A DNA stretch of 64,000 bases from positions 1-64,000 of the forward strand of contig CAMHFN010000004.1 of assembly GCA_946184615.1 (NCBI GenBank), read 5' to 3'. This DNA comes from an uncultured Bacteroidales bacterium (lineage in GTDB: Bacteria; Bacteroidota; Bacteroidia; Bacteroidales; F082). The position numbers and the translations under genes were made by a program. Shown piece by piece: positions 613 through 53,845 of the stretch. The notes beneath the pieces were generated by a model. That model worked only from the letters and a program-made list of their open reading frames with translations, was not told the DNA's origin and did not search any database. Position 1 is the stretch's first letter, and each line of letters opens with the position of its first letter.

Positions 613-1008
613 TTACTCCGTCAAGGTATCCATCCCGAGGGTGTCAGGCACCTCTATCATCACTTCTCCTTCAAGCGGCTCTTCGGGGAAGGTGTCGCAC
701 TGTACTACTTCGGTACTATCCATTGGCATCATCGGCATTCCTGCCGTTGGCTGAATCAACGGACCACATCCAGAGGCAGCGACAATGGTGCCCAGTGACA
801 GTCCAGCAAAAACGGCAACCTTACCCATGCGTTGGTGTTTTTCTAACTCGCGTTCCAGATAACGCACCTCAGCCTCGCATTTCGGGCACGTACCATCACA
901 GTCTCCTTTATGAGTGCATTCGGAAACAACCAGTTCAATGTCGTTTTCCAAGGCAATCTGCTGGCGGATTTCTTTCAAAATCTTACAAGTTTGCTTTCCT
1001 CTTTCCAT
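613..1008 (-). CDS. Cys-rich membrane-anchored protein, short paralogue without TonB domain
   Basis: 131 residues from the ATG at 1008. A longer reading from 1065 would overlap the upstream gene and lose the shared N-terminus. The first 63 residues match the next gene upstream at 52 positions. They contain a cysteine at 8 and a cluster C31-x5-C37-x3-C41-x2-C44 (in CTHKGDCDGTCPKC). A charged helix (RYLERELEKHQR) follows, then one hydrophobic segment at about 64-80 ending in Cys81. The rest is a short acidic, Met/Pro-rich tail. The positive charges before the membrane segment predict that the Cys cluster stays in the cytoplasm. No named function is known to me. The cluster could bind zinc or an iron-sulfur centre. 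It sits in a likely operon directly after its paralogue and a radical SAM gene. It looks like a copy that lost the TonB C-terminal domain. Confidence 0.75.
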   Translation of the reverse strand: MERGKQTCKILKEIRQQIALENDIELVVSECTHKGDCDGTCPKCEAEVRYLERELEKHQRMGKVAVFAGLSLGTIVAASGCGPLIQPTAGMPMMPMDSTEVVQCDTFPEEPLEGEVMIEVPDTLGMDTLTE

Positions 1009-1025
1009 AGTAAATTTTGTTTTTG

Positions 1026-1865
1026 TTACTCCAACGGGAAAAGAATCTTCTGCACACACCGGCATTCAAACAACGAGACGTCTCCATCTTTCAGTTCATA
1101 CCTTGCGGGGTGCCATTTTGTCCCTTGTAAGAAAGCGATCACTGCGGCATCCAGATTTAAGTCAAGACTATTCTCAACCATTACATCCACCACATCGCCT
1201 CCAGGGGTAACTGTAAAAGAAAGCTCCATTACGCCATTATACTGACCATTAATGGGTTTTCCTTTCAATCCTTCGGCAAGGTCTTTCAACATCTTTTGCT
1301 CACCTCCGGGATAACTGGGTGCTCTGAATTCTTTAGTTAATGCAACCAATTTCTCCAAACTGTTGCATTCTGTTCCATCGCTGATATGTCCATAGGGCAA
1401 CACACCACTGACAACGGACAGCTTTTCCATATCTGAGAAGAGGAAAAGGTCTTTCATCCATTTCTGATAGAACTCCTTATCAAAAGAGAACTCATTCTGG
1501 TACCACGCCACCAGTCCCATCAACCGTTCTTCAATGGTGTCGGGTTCCTGCTTTTGTGGTTCAACGACTTCGGCGACCACATCGCCGGCAAGGGGCTCCC
1601 TCGTCATCGGCTGAGTAGAATCGCACGATGCCGTTGTGAATAGAGTGCCGAGCGACAATCCAGCCACCATCGCGGCCTTACCCATCCGCTGGCGTTTCTC
1701 CAATTCGCGTTCCAGGTAACGCACCTCGGCTTCGCACTTCGGGCACGTACCTTGGCAGTCGCCTTTATAAGTACATTCCGAAGTCACCCATTCTATACCG
1801 TTCTCTTTTGCGATCTGCTCGCGGATCTCTTTCAAGATTTTACATGTTCGTTTACCTTTAGCCAT
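1026..1865 (-). CDS. Cys-rich N-terminus plus TonB-like C-terminal domain, membrane protein
   Basis: 279 residues from the ATG at 1865. The N-terminus carries Cys8 and the cluster C31-x5-C37-x3-C41-x2-C44, then a charged helix and a single membrane segment at about 64-80. The C-terminal 80 residues (from about MELSFTVTPGGDVVDVMV to the WHPARYELKDG region) have the spacing of a TonB C-terminal domain: a beta strand, a 'G-x-V' turn, a 'LD-x-A' helix and a 'W-x-PA' strand. The layout N-in, one membrane pass, TonB domain in the periplasm fits an energy transducer, but the Cys-rich cytoplasmic head is unlike classical TonB. The linker (about 85-200) shows no recognised domain. Twenty-three bases separate it from the radical SAM gene upstream, and 17 bases from its short paralogue downstream. 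It is probably co-transcribed with both. Confidence 0.8.
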   Translation of the reverse strand: MAKGKRTCKILKEIREQIAKENGIEWVTSECTYKGDCQGTCPKCEAEVRYLERELEKRQRMGKAAMVAGLSLGTLFTTASCDSTQPMTREPLAGDVVAEVVEPQKQEPDTIEERLMGLVAWYQNEFSFDKEFYQKWMKDLFLFSDMEKLSVVSGVLPYGHISDGTECNSLEKLVALTKEFRAPSYPGGEQKMLKDLAEGLKGKPINGQYNGVMELSFTVTPGGDVVDVMVENSLDLNLDAAVIAFLQGTKWHPARYELKDGDVSLFECRCVQKILFPLE

Positions 1866-1888
1866 CTTAAATTCTTGTTTTTTGATAC

Positions 1889-2497
1889 TCACCTAACTAA
1901 ATAATGGAACTCATCAAAGCGGGTCACGCCCATCGCCTTCAATTGTTCCAAACTCTGCTTTACCTCTTTTTCTGTGTTGAAATCAGGAATATGGGGAACT
2001 CGCACCAGAATACGATTCGGATCTCCATGTTGCAAAAGCCATTCCAAATTCTTCATTGTCAAAACATTATTTTTCCCCGTATAGGCTTCGTAGATTTCAG
2101 GATTCATGTCTTTGATATCTACGATATACCCATCCAGGATGGGGTCAAGCGTTTCCACTTTCTCAAAAGGCACATTAAGGCTAGTTTCTGCTACAAGTTG
2201 CCATTGCGGTCCGCAAAGTGAGCGGAATTCCTTGATGAACTCCCCTTGCAGCATGGGTTCTCCCCCACCGAAAGTGACACCTCCGCGGGTGGCCAGAAAA
2301 TACAATTGGTCCACCTTCACCTCCTCAAACAGGCGCTCGGGCGTGTAGGTTCTTCCCTTTTCAGGATCCCATGAGATTTTGTTAATGCAATACTTACATC
2401 GCAGAGGACAGCCGTTGAAGGCCACCAAAGTGGTGACACCCTCTCCATCTGTCGTCAGACGGTGACGGCTAATTCCTATGATGCGCACTGCATCCAT
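1889..2497 (-). CDS. Radical SAM protein, PFL-activating-enzyme-like
   Basis: 202 residues from the ATG at 2497. A GTG one codon earlier is possible. The motif C30-x3-C34-x2-C37 (NGCPLRCKYCIN) binds the SAM-dependent 4Fe-4S cluster. GGVTFGGGEPMLQ at about 72-84 is the GGE motif in the form typical of glycyl-radical activases. The VDIKD motif near 125 also fits that subgroup. It is short for an activase (usually about 240-300) and has no extra ferredoxin-type Cys pairs, so its target is uncertain. No glycyl-radical enzyme lies in the window. Its start overlaps the stop of the DUF5723 gene by one base (TGATG), which suggests coupled translation. The downstream neighbours are two Cys-rich membrane proteins, the obvious candidate partners. 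Confidence 0.88.
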   Translation of the reverse strand: MDAVRIIGISRHRLTTDGEGVTTLVAFNGCPLRCKYCINKISWDPEKGRTYTPERLFEEVKVDQLYFLATRGGVTFGGGEPMLQGEFIKEFRSLCGPQWQLVAETSLNVPFEKVETLDPILDGYIVDIKDMNPEIYEAYTGKNNVLTMKNLEWLLQHGDPNRILVRVPHIPDFNTEKEVKQSLEQLKAMGVTRFDEFHYLVR

Positions 2498-4002
2498 CAC
2501 TCCTCGGACTCTGTCCCCGCTTTGGACTCTATTTCGTCCCCGGTTTCGGATCCTGCTTCATATTCTGCTTCAGCCTCAGCGGCATGATCTCTCAACACAA
2601 TGGTTTCGCTCCGACTAATCTTGTCACCACTCGTAAACGAAATACCAAATTGGGCATTTACCATACTTCTATTCGCAGGATTGAAGAAGCCAAACAGGTT
2701 ATTGGTAGCAAAATAAATGAGCATACCTCCCAGATTGGCACTCAAGCCAAGGCCCAAGTTGTCAAATCCACCAGGCATCATGGTATACGTTGCCACCACA
2801 TCATATCTTTCATTAAACGAGCCAGTATAGGCAAGGGTCATGGCGGGTTTCATGCCCAACCCCACGTTGAAACCGGTGAACTGGGCCGAAAAACGATGTT
2901 CCGGAGTCAAGTCATAATAGCCACGCAACATCAAGTTGGTATACAATCCTGTAGTATAGCCGACCAAGTTCTGGTTTTGCAGCTGGAAATAGCCACGCAA
3001 CGAATCCACAAGACCATTGACATACCCTGGAGTATTCACGATGTCATTGACTTGTTCTGCGGTCAGTCCAGGGAAGACAAAGGCTCCATCGTCATAAAAC
3101 GAGCCATTATCCTGCAACTCACCTGAGAAATTAATTGCATACGTCTTCCAGCGAATAAAACCGAGGTCGTTAAGTGCCGCGGCTGCCCCCCAATGGTCAT
3201 CGAACTTATATTCTGCTCCCAAGTCGATGCCAAGCCCATAGTTTTTGAATAAGGTGGCGGGATTGAAATGGTTGTCCTTGAGCCTCATATTTCCATTCTC
3301 ATCATTGACAATCTCCACTGGAAGTGAGGCATTGACATTGGCAGCGCTCATCAGCTTCAAAGCGTAAGTCTCTGGGTCAGTATAGAGTTTCACGTTCAAC
3401 GCCTGGGTCTTGGCATCCATGAAACCCATGAGGAACTTGAGGCGGACACCGATATTCAGTTCTTCCAATAGGCTCATTTGATACCCAAAATCGAATTCTT
3501 GGAAAGCTCTAGCCGAAAGACCTATATTAATATCAGCAGGATTCGACTCACCCAAAAAGGCAGAGTTGCCATTGGCAAGAAGTTGAACCATGTCCTTGTT
3601 GTAACGCAGTGACTCTACCTCCCGGAAACGATGGGTATAGGTGAAATAGCCGTATTTGGTACGGCGACCGCAGTTGAAAATGTCAACATTAACGTAGGTA
3701 TTGAGGTAATTCACATCCCTGAGGCTAGCAACACCTGCGTTAAGATCCACGGTCGTTGGTTGACCGTTGCCGTTGAAACGGAAAAACTTATCGTATTTCA
3801 GGCCGATATTCTGAGCTCCTATGTTAATACCGCCCAAGGCAAAATCAAAATAACCGTAATCCGCGGTATAGAAAGCAGGGTTGGCAAATGCAGCCCTAGG
3901 ATTGTTACGCATGAAATCCACGGGGGACACAAACTGGGCCGTCGCCACCGACGACAGCATAACCACAAACAATAAAGTTGCAAAGATTCTGATTTGTTTC
4001 AT
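2497..4002 (-). CDS. DUF5723-type outer-membrane beta-barrel protein
   Basis: 501 residues with a signal peptide (hydrophobic 6-20, cleavage after VATA-Q). The body is rich in alternating aromatic/polar strands and motifs such as NNPRAAFANPAFY and FNPANRSMVNAQFGISF, typical of Bacteroidota DUF5723 barrels. It ends in an unusual acidic tail of about 30 residues dominated by Glu, Ala and Ser. The function of the family is not known; a barrel in the outer membrane is inferred. It follows a lipoprotein gene by 15 bases and overlaps the radical SAM gene by one base, so it is in the middle of an operon. Lipoprotein plus DUF5723 is a combination I believe recurs in this phylum, but that is recollection only. 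Confidence 0.82.
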   Translation of the reverse strand: MKQIRIFATLLFVVMLSSVATAQFVSPVDFMRNNPRAAFANPAFYTADYGYFDFALGGINIGAQNIGLKYDKFFRFNGNGQPTTVDLNAGVASLRDVNYLNTYVNVDIFNCGRRTKYGYFTYTHRFREVESLRYNKDMVQLLANGNSAFLGESNPADINIGLSARAFQEFDFGYQMSLLEELNIGVRLKFLMGFMDAKTQALNVKLYTDPETYALKLMSAANVNASLPVEIVNDENGNMRLKDNHFNPATLFKNYGLGIDLGAEYKFDDHWGAAAALNDLGFIRWKTYAINFSGELQDNGSFYDDGAFVFPGLTAEQVNDIVNTPGYVNGLVDSLRGYFQLQNQNLVGYTTGLYTNLMLRGYYDLTPEHRFSAQFTGFNVGLGMKPAMTLAYTGSFNERYDVVATYTMMPGGFDNLGLGLSANLGGMLIYFATNNLFGFFNPANRSMVNAQFGISFTSGDKISRSETIVLRDHAAEAEAEYEAGSETGDEIESKAGTESEE

Positions 4003-4017
4003 TGTCGTATCCTCCTA

Positions 4018-5553
4018 TTAATTATTGTGAATATCCAACTCACCACCATAAATCACGTCAGCCTTAAGTGTCAAACCCAAACTGTTGTTGACATTAATGG
4101 AGGCCGTGGTTCCTCCCGTATTAAGACCCGCTTTCAGAAGCAGTTTCTTCGATTCAAAAAGACGGTTCAAGCTCTCATGGGTCACCGAAACATTGGTATT
4201 TGTGACCACCGGTGCCCCTGAAACCCATGCGTCAATATCCAAACCATTGTCAAGAATCTGTCCTGTGATTTGGTCATTGTCGTCAAGGGTGTAAAGCTGT
4301 GCATCCAAGTTAAAGGGGAACTTCGAGTCAAACGTAATGTGCAAAACGACTTTATTGACAAGGTCAGGCACCTCAACCTTTGAAATATCAATATCAAAGG
4401 TATCGAGATAGAAAACACCTTCATCACTTTCAAAACTGAACGGGATTTCAACGCCGACACCGAGACCCAATACAGAGGTCCTGCGAATAACAATGTCATT
4501 GGACACTCCGCCTGGATTGAACACGGCCTCGCCACCCAAACGGAATGAATTGTGTTGCGTATTGAGATCAAAGTTGGGATAAAACACTTGTTCCACCATT
4601 TCATCGCCAGTAGGAGCCAGATTGGGAGCAAAACCCTCTGGGAAGATGGGAGAAGTCACTCCATCCGCTCCATAAAACTCCAAGGTGTCCATACTCACCA
4701 TGGCATTCAAACCGCCAAAGGTATTCTTATGTTTAAGGACAAGTTTCGCATTCTTCAAAGCGATATCGCCACTGACATTCACTGGCAGGAAGAACGTGGT
4801 GTCGACGGGTGCTATTCTTTGAGATTGTGAGGCGAGATGTCCTTTAAGCTCTTCTAGCACCAAGTCTTTCAGTTCCACCGAAGCATGCATGTGAAGCTGT
4901 GGCTGTTCGAGAATCGTACTGTCCAACTCAGATACGATCACATAATTCAAGACAATAGCTTCTTCATTAAGATGGAACGTTGCACCAGAAAGATCCAGAT
5001 GGGCAGCATCACCACACAACGTATCGCCAGGCCACTCGGGGTTCGTGATATCCGGAGAGGAGATTGTCCAACTCTTGACAGTGAACATATTGCTGGTGGG
5101 AACCATTCCAATCATGCCACTCTCAATTTTCACATAATCAATGGAAGAGACACTGTCGGAAGATAACTCGATCCTCTGCTGGCAATAAAGGGTATCCTTC
5201 ATAGCAACAGGCAACGGCACGCCTGAACCATAGAACTCGTTGGGCAATTCAAAATCAAAATCGAGTCCAAAAGCAGCGATGGTCATGAAATTTTTGCCCG
5301 AAAGGATGTTGTCCAAGGTGTAATCGTAGGCGATATAGAGGTTGGAGTCTGCATCATACCTGATCATACCATTATAGTTCAACTGGGTCAGCACCTGCTT
5401 GAGGGAGGCTCGGGCAGAACCAATAGGGAGATTCCACTCTCCGGAGCCCTCGACCGTTTCAAGCTCGCTGAAGTCGAACCTGTTTTTGTTGCAGGAGAAC
5501 ATCAAAATGGCCGCAAACGCCAATGTCACCCCTAATAGTAAACGTCTTTTCAT
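4018..5553 (-). CDS. Large exported lipoprotein of unknown function
   Basis: 511 residues from the ATG at 5553. The N-terminus is a lipoprotein signal ending LMFSC with Cys21 as the lipidation site. The rest is beta-rich, with many 'LDLSGATFHLNEEA'-like strands and no catalytic motif that I recognise. Phrases like NVSGDIALKNAKLVLKH and SLGLTLKADVIYGG suggest repeated beta-sandwich folds, perhaps adhesin- or LEA-like. It lies 34 bases after hutI and 15 bases before the DUF5723 barrel on the same strand, so a surface complex of lipoprotein plus barrel is plausible. No more specific function can be supported. Confidence 0.78.
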   Translation of the reverse strand: MKRRLLLGVTLAFAAILMFSCNKNRFDFSELETVEGSGEWNLPIGSARASLKQVLTQLNYNGMIRYDADSNLYIAYDYTLDNILSGKNFMTIAAFGLDFDFELPNEFYGSGVPLPVAMKDTLYCQQRIELSSDSVSSIDYVKIESGMIGMVPTSNMFTVKSWTISSPDITNPEWPGDTLCGDAAHLDLSGATFHLNEEAIVLNYVIVSELDSTILEQPQLHMHASVELKDLVLEELKGHLASQSQRIAPVDTTFFLPVNVSGDIALKNAKLVLKHKNTFGGLNAMVSMDTLEFYGADGVTSPIFPEGFAPNLAPTGDEMVEQVFYPNFDLNTQHNSFRLGGEAVFNPGGVSNDIVIRRTSVLGLGVGVEIPFSFESDEGVFYLDTFDIDISKVEVPDLVNKVVLHITFDSKFPFNLDAQLYTLDDNDQITGQILDNGLDIDAWVSGAPVVTNTNVSVTHESLNRLFESKKLLLKAGLNTGGTTASINVNNSLGLTLKADVIYGGELDIHNN

Positions 5554-52780: not shown

Positions 52781-53845
52781 ATGCTTCAGGCTTTCCACAA
52801 TTATTTCAGAAAAAAAGAGACCCAGCTCCACGAGCTGAATTATCTCTTTTGGGAATGCACTCAGCGTTGCAATCTTAACTGCAGACATTGCGGTTCAGAT
52901 TGCACCGCTTCTTCTTTATATAGAGACATGCCTTTTGAGGATTTCCTGAAGGCCATTGAGCCTTTGGAAACCCAATTCAAGCGCGATTCCGTCTTTGTAG
53001 TGATTACTGGCGGCGAGCCCTTAGTACGGAAGGACTTGGCCGATTGTGGGCGACAGTTGCGCCAGCACGGCTTCCCCTGGGGCATTGTCAGCAACGGTTG
53101 GGCTTACGACGAAGCACGGCACAAGGAGTTGATGGACGCCGGATTGTGCAGCGTTACCTTCAGTCTGGACGGCTTACCTGAAACCCATGATGCCTTTCGC
53201 AAACGTCAAGGCAGCTTCGACCATGCCTTACAGGCCATTGACCTGGTGGCGAATGAAAAACGGCTGCCCACCTATGACATTGTGACTTGTGTGAGCCCGA
53301 TGAACCTGGGCGAATTGGAGGAATTGAAACAGTTACTTATCGCTCATCACGTAAAGGCTTGGCGTTTTTTCACCATCGAACCTATCGGAAGAGCCGCCCA
53401 AGACCCCAACCTCCAGCTCAGCAATACCCAGTTCAAGCAGCTGATGGATTTCATTGTCGCTACCCGGAAAGAAGGAAAAATCCATGCCACCTTCAGCTGT
53501 GAAGCCTACGTAGGGCCATACGAACGTAAGGTGCGCGACTGGTACTATTTCTGTCGTGCAGGCATCACCATTGGGTCGGTGTTGGTGGACGGATCCATCT
53601 CGGCTTGTCCCAACATCAACCGTAAATTGTTTGTCCAAGGCAACATCTACCAAGACGACTTCCTCGACGTGTGGGAGAACCGTTTCCAGCCTTTCCGCAA
53701 CCGTACTTGGATGAAAACTGGGATTTGCAAGGACTGCAAAGTTTACAAAAATTGTCTTGGCGGTGCCATGCACCTGCATCACTCCAACACGGGTGAAATT
53801 ATCCAGTGCCATTATCAAAAACTCATAGGTTCCAACAATGCGTAA
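52781..53845 (+). CDS. Radical SAM/SPASM enzyme of an rSAM/lipoprotein system
   Basis: 354 residues. The SAM 4Fe-4S motif is C30-x3-C34-x2-C37 in QRCNLNCRHCGSD. VVITGGEPLVRKD and FSLDGLPETHDAFR are typical of the twitch/SPASM peptide-modifying group. The C-terminal SPASM cysteines appear in YFCRAGITIG, ISACPNIN, GICKDCKVYKNCLGG and the final IIQCHYQ. These would hold two auxiliary clusters. The enzyme is cytosolic. Together with the lipoprotein three bases upstream and the CotH gene overlapping by eight bases downstream, it forms a compact operon. The family name TIGR04133 is from memory. Confidence 0.9.
   Translation: MLQAFHNYFRKKETQLHELNYLFWECTQRCNLNCRHCGSDCTASSLYRDMPFEDFLKAIEPLETQFKRDSVFVVITGGEPLVRKDLADCGRQLRQHGFPWGIVSNGWAYDEARHKELMDAGLCSVTFSLDGLPETHDAFRKRQGSFDHALQAIDLVANEKRLPTYDIVTCVSPMNLGELEELKQLLIAHHVKAWRFFTIEPIGRAAQDPNLQLSNTQFKQLMDFIVATRKEGKIHATFSCEAYVGPYERKVRDWYYFCRAGITIGSVLVDGSISACPNINRKLFVQGNIYQDDFLDVWENRFQPFRNRTWMKTGICKDCKVYKNCLGGAMHLHHSNTGEIIQCHYQKLIGSNNA

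Follow-up and report, generated by a model that had tools for sequence, protein, structure and literature searches.

The window, by which we mean the whole 64,000-nucleotide stretch of Bacteroidales DNA analysed here, encodes a small radical S-adenosylmethionine (SAM) enzyme and two proteins that begin with the same five-cysteine domain of 62 residues, called the head. We found that the head occurs in two bacterial phyla together with a private clade of radical SAM enzymes that resemble the activases of glycyl radical enzymes such as pyruvate formate-lyase (PFL). It is as good as shown that the two form one system. This is probably a two-part, post-translational modification system similar to those that make ribosomally synthesized and post-translationally modified peptides (RiPPs), in which the enzyme and the head modify a motif, [LMIV]-x-G-[DE] (LxG[DE] below), of exported proteins. 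The case is built from what the computation revealed: the link between head and enzyme, a natural fusion of the two, the topology pattern of the head proteins, the motif that their tails share, and carriers in which no PFL-like enzyme was found. Our literature search found no description of the head-enzyme system.

In the window, a DUF5723 gene, the radical SAM gene, and the two head genes form a single run on the minus strand, with the DUF5723 gene first. The ATG of the enzyme gene shares one base with the DUF5723 stop codon. Gaps of 23 nt from the enzyme gene to the gene of the TonB-tailed head protein, and of 17 nt from there to that of the short head protein, leave no room for a promoter between the genes. 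The preliminary description of this DNA had reported the three genes in this way and was right. Its other count also held in the translations: 52 of the first 63 residues of the two head proteins are identical, as compared by eye, and both heads have Cys8, 31, 37, 41, and 44. The window's genome (79% complete), when searched, yielded just two heads, both at this locus.

A scan of a species-genome collection with the short protein's head gave 264 relatives, mostly from rumen and gut Bacteroidota, with Clostridia at 61 to 65% head identity. Among the carriers is the cultivable Bacteroides xylanisolvens XB1A (L068). We kept 73 loci, each with 1 to 7 head matches. A matching radical SAM gene lies in the fetched stretch of 60 of them (L027 and L066, in which the open reading frame [ORF] is split or partial, are counted as bearing it). 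The 13 other loci belong to 10 genomes, 7 of which have the enzyme elsewhere; no clade enzyme was found anywhere in the remaining 3 (G491, G492, and G494), which are exceptions to the pairing. We also drew even samples of genomes from two orders in two phyla. In the window's order, the head was found in 9 of 295 genomes and the enzyme in the same 9 (256 to 347 bits; next best, 136 bits). In a clostridial order, the head was found in 11 of 245 genomes and the enzyme in the same 11 (269 to 337 bits; next best, 141 bits). The clade is delimited in these surveys by the gap in bit score; at the search's own E-value limits, 46 of the 295 genomes and 13 of the 245 had a match to the enzyme, and at most 10 or 12 first-look candidates per genome were scored. 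A class-wide sample of 198 genomes had the head in two and the enzyme in the same two, both also present in the order sample.

By their listed coordinates, a head and the enzyme lie no more than about 650 bp apart in all 20 carriers of the two orders; G222 and G449 have additional heads on other contigs, another exception to the pairing. We then looked at six genes on each side of 60 radical SAM genes, using a simple ORF picker that lost some loci. The 60 genes fall into 17 lineages at 65% identity. A head cluster neighbors the enzyme in 14 lineages and is fused to it in 2, and in the remaining one (L055) the head overlaps the end of the enzyme. Besides heads, no neighbor cluster recurs in more than three lineages, and those of hutI, orf5, and DUF5723 are seen only in lineage 0, that of the window. 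The head-enzyme pairing is far beyond chance. The preliminary description had called the two functional partners and had named beforehand two findings that would speak against this: no conserved neighborhood elsewhere, or heads in many genomes without a radical SAM partner. Neither was borne out, and the adjacency in 20 of 20 genomes from two phyla and the natural fusions agree with a partnership.

The head has a mean column identity of 80% over 23 diverse members. In a set of 28 that takes in the most distant members as well as the fusions, Cys8, 31, 41, and 44 never vary; the fifth Cys of the fused heads lies one residue away from its usual position. Ungapped identity falls from 0.747 in the head to 0.350 in the hydrophobic stretch that follows and to 0.078 in the tail. 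By a permissive pattern, a signal-peptide-like stretch with a cleavage-like site follows the head in 163 of 168 head proteins. The site is a lipobox-like Cys in 110 and AxA-like in 53; two proteins have neither, two are short, and one is partial (these counts and those of the motif below exclude loci L087 to L099, which are copies of genomes already included). One membrane helix had been described in each window protein. The hydrophobic stretch is there, but because it ends in a lipobox-like Cys81, it would serve as an export signal too. Judged from such sequence patterns, the Cys speaks against an uncleaved inner-membrane anchor. The tails are diverse. Two CarboxypepD_reg models are each matched by 6 of 88 head proteins, and many clostridial tails are short, acidic, and of low complexity.

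The tail motif was first noticed by eye. Four-position patterns were then enumerated on 79 tails with residue classes of our choosing. The top pattern was [DE]G[DE][LMIV], followed by [LMIV]xG[DE], which overlaps it, and other overlapping forms, and then by unrelated D-[ATS]-[LMIV] patterns. We found 108 copies of [LMIV]xG[DE], spread over 64 of the 79 tails, versus 39.9 ± 6.1 in 1,000 shuffles (largest, 60). In an enlarged set of 88 tails, the 25 from Clostridia have 59 copies (16.0 ± 3.9 in shuffles) and the 63 from Bacteroidota have 76 (28.6 ± 5.0 in shuffles). The rate is 10.2 per 1,000 residues in the tails versus 1.75 in a control of 658 further ORFs from these loci, which were called by a simple ORF picker and may include spurious frames. 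Val, Ile, or Pro often follows the acidic residue. By lineage, the motif is found in 14 of 17, with lineage 2 represented by two of its five peptides. Drawing one random member of each gave 13.5 lineages versus 6.3 for shuffles, with ranges that touch, and in small lineages the excess is not significant alone. The strict form is missing in L065, L080, and L084.

One family, seen in 6 of 9 genomes, places the head elsewhere. There, it is the C-terminal domain of the radical SAM enzyme and has no hydrophobic stretch. The next gene after each of the six fusions encodes a peptide of 61 to 92 residues that begins with a conserved MLI-x-D and has two or three xxG sites. Gly31, Leu59, and Gly61 are invariant in all six peptides, and the codon positions of the peptide gene differ as expected of a coding gene (0.371, 0.274, and 0.580). 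The fusion and window arrangements have in common that the enzyme and head are on one side and LxG[DE] is on the other. Because the fusion splits the enzyme and head from the LxG[DE] peptide, we take the motif to be the substrate and the head to be machinery; this is our main reason. We also favor the tails over the head as the substrate because of the signal-peptide features together with the shared motif. The LxG[DE] motif is thus the likely modification target.

The reading that survives best next to this one makes the head itself the substrate. The enzyme would install or alter something on the five Cys, such as a thioether or a maturing cluster, and the tails would be cargo. The head is the most conserved part, its five Cys are conserved, and it co-occurs with the enzyme. 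However, the fusion family has the head as part of the enzyme and the tail motif on a separate peptide, and this reading leaves the common motif without a reason. We consider it rather unlikely.

Because of its five conserved Cys, a metal or Fe-S center in the head is plausible; Fe-S and Zn are the candidates. An AlphaFold2 model of the head of the short protein alone (predicted local distance difference test [pLDDT], 87.0; predicted template modeling score [pTM], 0.71) has two helices around the Cys loop, and no good match to it was found among solved structures. Aligned to SPASM with hhalign, the head signature C-x5-C-x-G-x-C-P-K scored 25.0, versus a mean of 10.2 and a maximum of 17.9 in 60 column shuffles, with just four sequences on the SPASM side; Pfam SPASM had no match in 23 heads. 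In the model of the fusion enzyme (pTM, 0.90), the structural alignments that reach the head part are to SuiB, anSME, MoaA, viperin-like enzymes, MqnE, BlsE, and HydE. This mixture singles out no family. The 23 heads had weak, scattered matches in Pfam and NCBIfam (best, 0.0032 and 0.017). The segment GTCPKCEAEV is weakly like zinc ribbons, with a YjdM-type match in 21 of the 23 heads (best, 0.0032).

LysW is a small Cys domain that recruits enzymes to its tail. The head resembles it in GTCP-x-C-x-AE; the similarity is not significant (E of 0.44 for the profile against PDB sequences; 0.0058 for the short protein in Pfam), and the enzymes differ. These zinc-ribbon likenesses and the exported topology of the head proteins would suit a head that is a zinc docking domain like that of LysW. 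LxG[DE] would then be a sorting or protease signal, and the radical SAM enzyme would do something else in the pathway. This is unlikely, as the motif is also present in a peptide without a head, that next to the fused enzyme, and occurs in both phyla despite their different envelopes.

The preliminary description had offered another model, in which the head is a redox or metal center and DUF5723 or another outer-membrane protein receives the result through the TonB tail. TonB_C is matched in 28 of 88 head proteins at an E of 0.001 or better (best, 2.6e-34), and DUF5723 is coupled to the system in the window and its lineage. However, most head proteins have no TonB_C match, Clostridia also have the system, and the signal-peptide-like ends point to a separation of head and tail. 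Outside the lineage of the window, DUF5723 does not recur, and it therefore looks like local synteny. We regard the hand-over model as improbable. The TonB-like end that it started from is strong in relatives but weak in the window protein itself (23.7 bits versus a cut-off of 24.6). The short protein did not simply lose this domain, as had been supposed, because tails vary throughout the family.

The window enzyme matches Pfam Radical_SAM (2.5e-17) and NCBIfam PFLE_PFLC (TIGR02494; 8.6e-36). Among the best 25 of 36 families, it is under every curated NCBIfam cut-off, the best being TIGR02494 with 123.7 bits versus 174.35. Profile and structure comparisons both place it closest to activases, and the fold of the PFL-activating enzyme (PFL-AE) and the C-x3-C-x2-C site are both present. 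No SPASM domain was matched at an E of 1, and the 202 residues include no C-terminal Cys cluster. Mean column identity is 59% over 18 members. In a tree, the 57 rows of system enzymes are on one side of a branch and seven other activases are on the opposite side (support, 100/99). Because the tool warned of long branches meeting in this tree, we gave the score gap as much weight. A PFL-like glycyl radical enzyme (PF02901) was found in 13 of the 20 carriers, in just one of these (G498) on the contig of the radical SAM gene, about 6 kb away, and was not found in the other 7. As part of our whole explanation, the radical SAM enzyme is probably a PFL-activase-like enzyme that no longer serves glycyl radical enzymes. 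That it is an ordinary activase lying beside head genes by chance, as its closest relatives and the PFL-like enzymes of 13 carriers might suggest, is very improbable and already largely refuted by the exact co-occurrence with the head in 20 of 20 genomes, the 7 carriers in which no PFL-like enzyme was found, and the separate group in the tree.

In the mechanism we propose, the head, usually at the N terminus of the substrate, would bring the enzyme to the nascent protein before export. The enzyme's targets would then be the LxG[DE] copies along the flexible tail. The site on which PFL-AE acts is a hydrophobic-x-Gly loop, and the chemistry here may start with abstraction of a hydrogen atom at or next to the motif glycine. 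The signal-peptide-like stretch after the head would lead to Sec export, after which the head and the hydrophobic stretch are probably cleaved off by signal peptidase II or I. What remains would be an exported protein, a lipoprotein or another kind, that bears the modification. Where head and enzyme are fused, the head would work from the C terminus of the enzyme, with the separate small peptide as substrate. We tentatively suggest one possible chemistry, in which a recruited glycyl-radical activase forms a Cα radical on the motif glycine. The head would be a detached auxiliary-cluster domain, carried by either the substrate or the enzyme, and its cluster would complete the reaction; the outcome could be oxidation, a cross-link, sulfur insertion, or backbone cleavage. 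If true, gut and rumen bacteria of two phyla would bear a new kind of protein modification on their surface.

We compared the system with known ones. The system differs from PFL-AE (3c8f, 3cb8, and 8fo0) in that no PFL-like partner was found in 7 of 20 carriers and in that its enzyme works with a Cys head and forms its own group in the tree. Like radical SAM RiPP systems (SuiB, CteB, and anSME-type SPASM maturases), it has an enzyme gene that adjoins its precursors, often several per locus, with a conserved N-terminal part and a variable, motif-bearing rest. A precursor is beside the enzyme in 20 of 20 genomes, and a small peptide is beside the fusion in 6 of 6. The identities of 0.747 and 0.078 fit a conserved recognition part and a variable core with a recurring motif. 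The window enzyme differs from the SPASM maturases in having no SPASM match. In addition, the "leader" here is a Cys domain of 62 residues that can be part of the enzyme instead, and most substrates resemble exported proteins rather than peptides, with TonB_C or CarboxypepD domains in some. Another radical SAM family, TIGR04133, resembles the system in its pairing with a lipoprotein partner, TIGR04134. The best 25 of 36 families for the window enzyme do not include TIGR04133, and at an E of 1 neither family matched the two head proteins or the 23 heads, the presence of TIGR04134 in the library being unchecked.

Bufferins are the best analogy. The bufferin paper states that bufferin precursors have Sec signal peptides, that some are predicted lipoproteins, and that such signals are highly unusual on RiPP precursors (PMC12452194). 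A Sec-type signal on the precursor, predicted in our case, is common to both systems, whereas the enzyme is a radical SAM enzyme here and a multinuclear nonheme iron-dependent oxidative (MNIO) enzyme in bufferins and oxazolins, and the conserved Cys lie here in the head and not in the exported core. Because library matches are weak and scattered and bufferins are just an analogy, we place the system, a radical SAM-based, RiPP-like modification, outside every tested family.

If our explanation is true, gut and rumen bacteria have an undescribed route for modifying exported proteins, and the PFL-activase fold extends from enzyme activation to the tailoring of such proteins. The substrate would carry the accessory domain in most lineages; in another, the enzyme would carry the same domain. 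In the copy on a Segatella copri plasmid, the proteins are annotated "energy transducer TonB" and "radical SAM protein"; proteins with such names would be the substrates and enzyme of one system. The fusion enzyme with a 71-residue peptide would make a simple two-gene test of Gly-directed radical SAM action on a short motif.

Table 1. Features of the head-enzyme locus in the window
Feature	Position	Strand	Basis or remark
Radical SAM enzyme, 202 aa, PFL-activase-like	1889..2497	-	Single C-x3-C-x2-C site, Cys30/34/37
Head protein with TonB_C-like tail, 279 aa	1026..1865	-	
Cys head of TonB-tailed protein, residues 1-62 (Cys8, 31, 37, 41, 44)	1680..1865	-	
Hydrophobic stretch and lipobox-like Cys81 (TTASC) of TonB-tailed protein; predicted export signal	1623..1676	-	Inferred from family pattern
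LAGDV, [LMIV]xG[DE] copy in TonB-tailed protein; proposed modification site	1578..1592	-	Motif counts
TonB_C-like region, residues 209-263	1077..1241	-	E 6.8e-5, just under cut-off
Short head protein, 131 aa	613..1008	-	
Cys head of short protein, residues 1-62	823..1008	-	Sequence; head-only AlphaFold2 model
Hydrophobic stretch and lipobox-like Cys81 (AASGC) of short head protein; predicted export signal	766..819	-	Inferred from family pattern
LEGEV, [LMIV]xG[DE] copy in short head protein	661..675	-	Motif counts
DUF5723 gene	2497..4002	-	E 1.2e-64; context of window's lineage only

Upstream of the DUF5723 gene, positions 4018-5553 (minus strand) encode a 511-residue protein without a Pfam match at an E of 1. 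Its cluster and that of DUF5723 each recur 25 times around the 26 lineage-0 radical SAM genes and nowhere else in the set. Far from the locus, at 52781-53845 (plus strand), the window has a TIGR04133 (rSAM_w_lipo) member (474.5 bits versus a cut-off of 425), which directly precedes a 600-residue protein with a type A sorting domain of the type IX secretion system (T9SS).

Some single loci have features of their own. In G677:C101 (L120), an in-frame TAG after 41 head residues may be decay, a sequencing error, or recoding. The L051 contig is labelled Paenibacillus sp.; its head and enzyme group with those of the Porphyromonadaceae locus L050 (lineage 3), and it is probably misbinned. At L084 (6444-13234), a stand-alone 88-residue head and the enzyme are in a run with DUF1848, a 1,250-residue Sel1/BspA-LRR protein, and DUF3800. 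This pair, which has no LxG[DE] tail, is possibly a different use of enzyme and head. A relaxase gene is also near the L084 copy. On the Segatella copri plasmid (NZ_CP137558.1; L150), the system is between a transposase gene and relaxase, mobC, and integrase genes. The system may therefore travel as the cargo of mobile elements.
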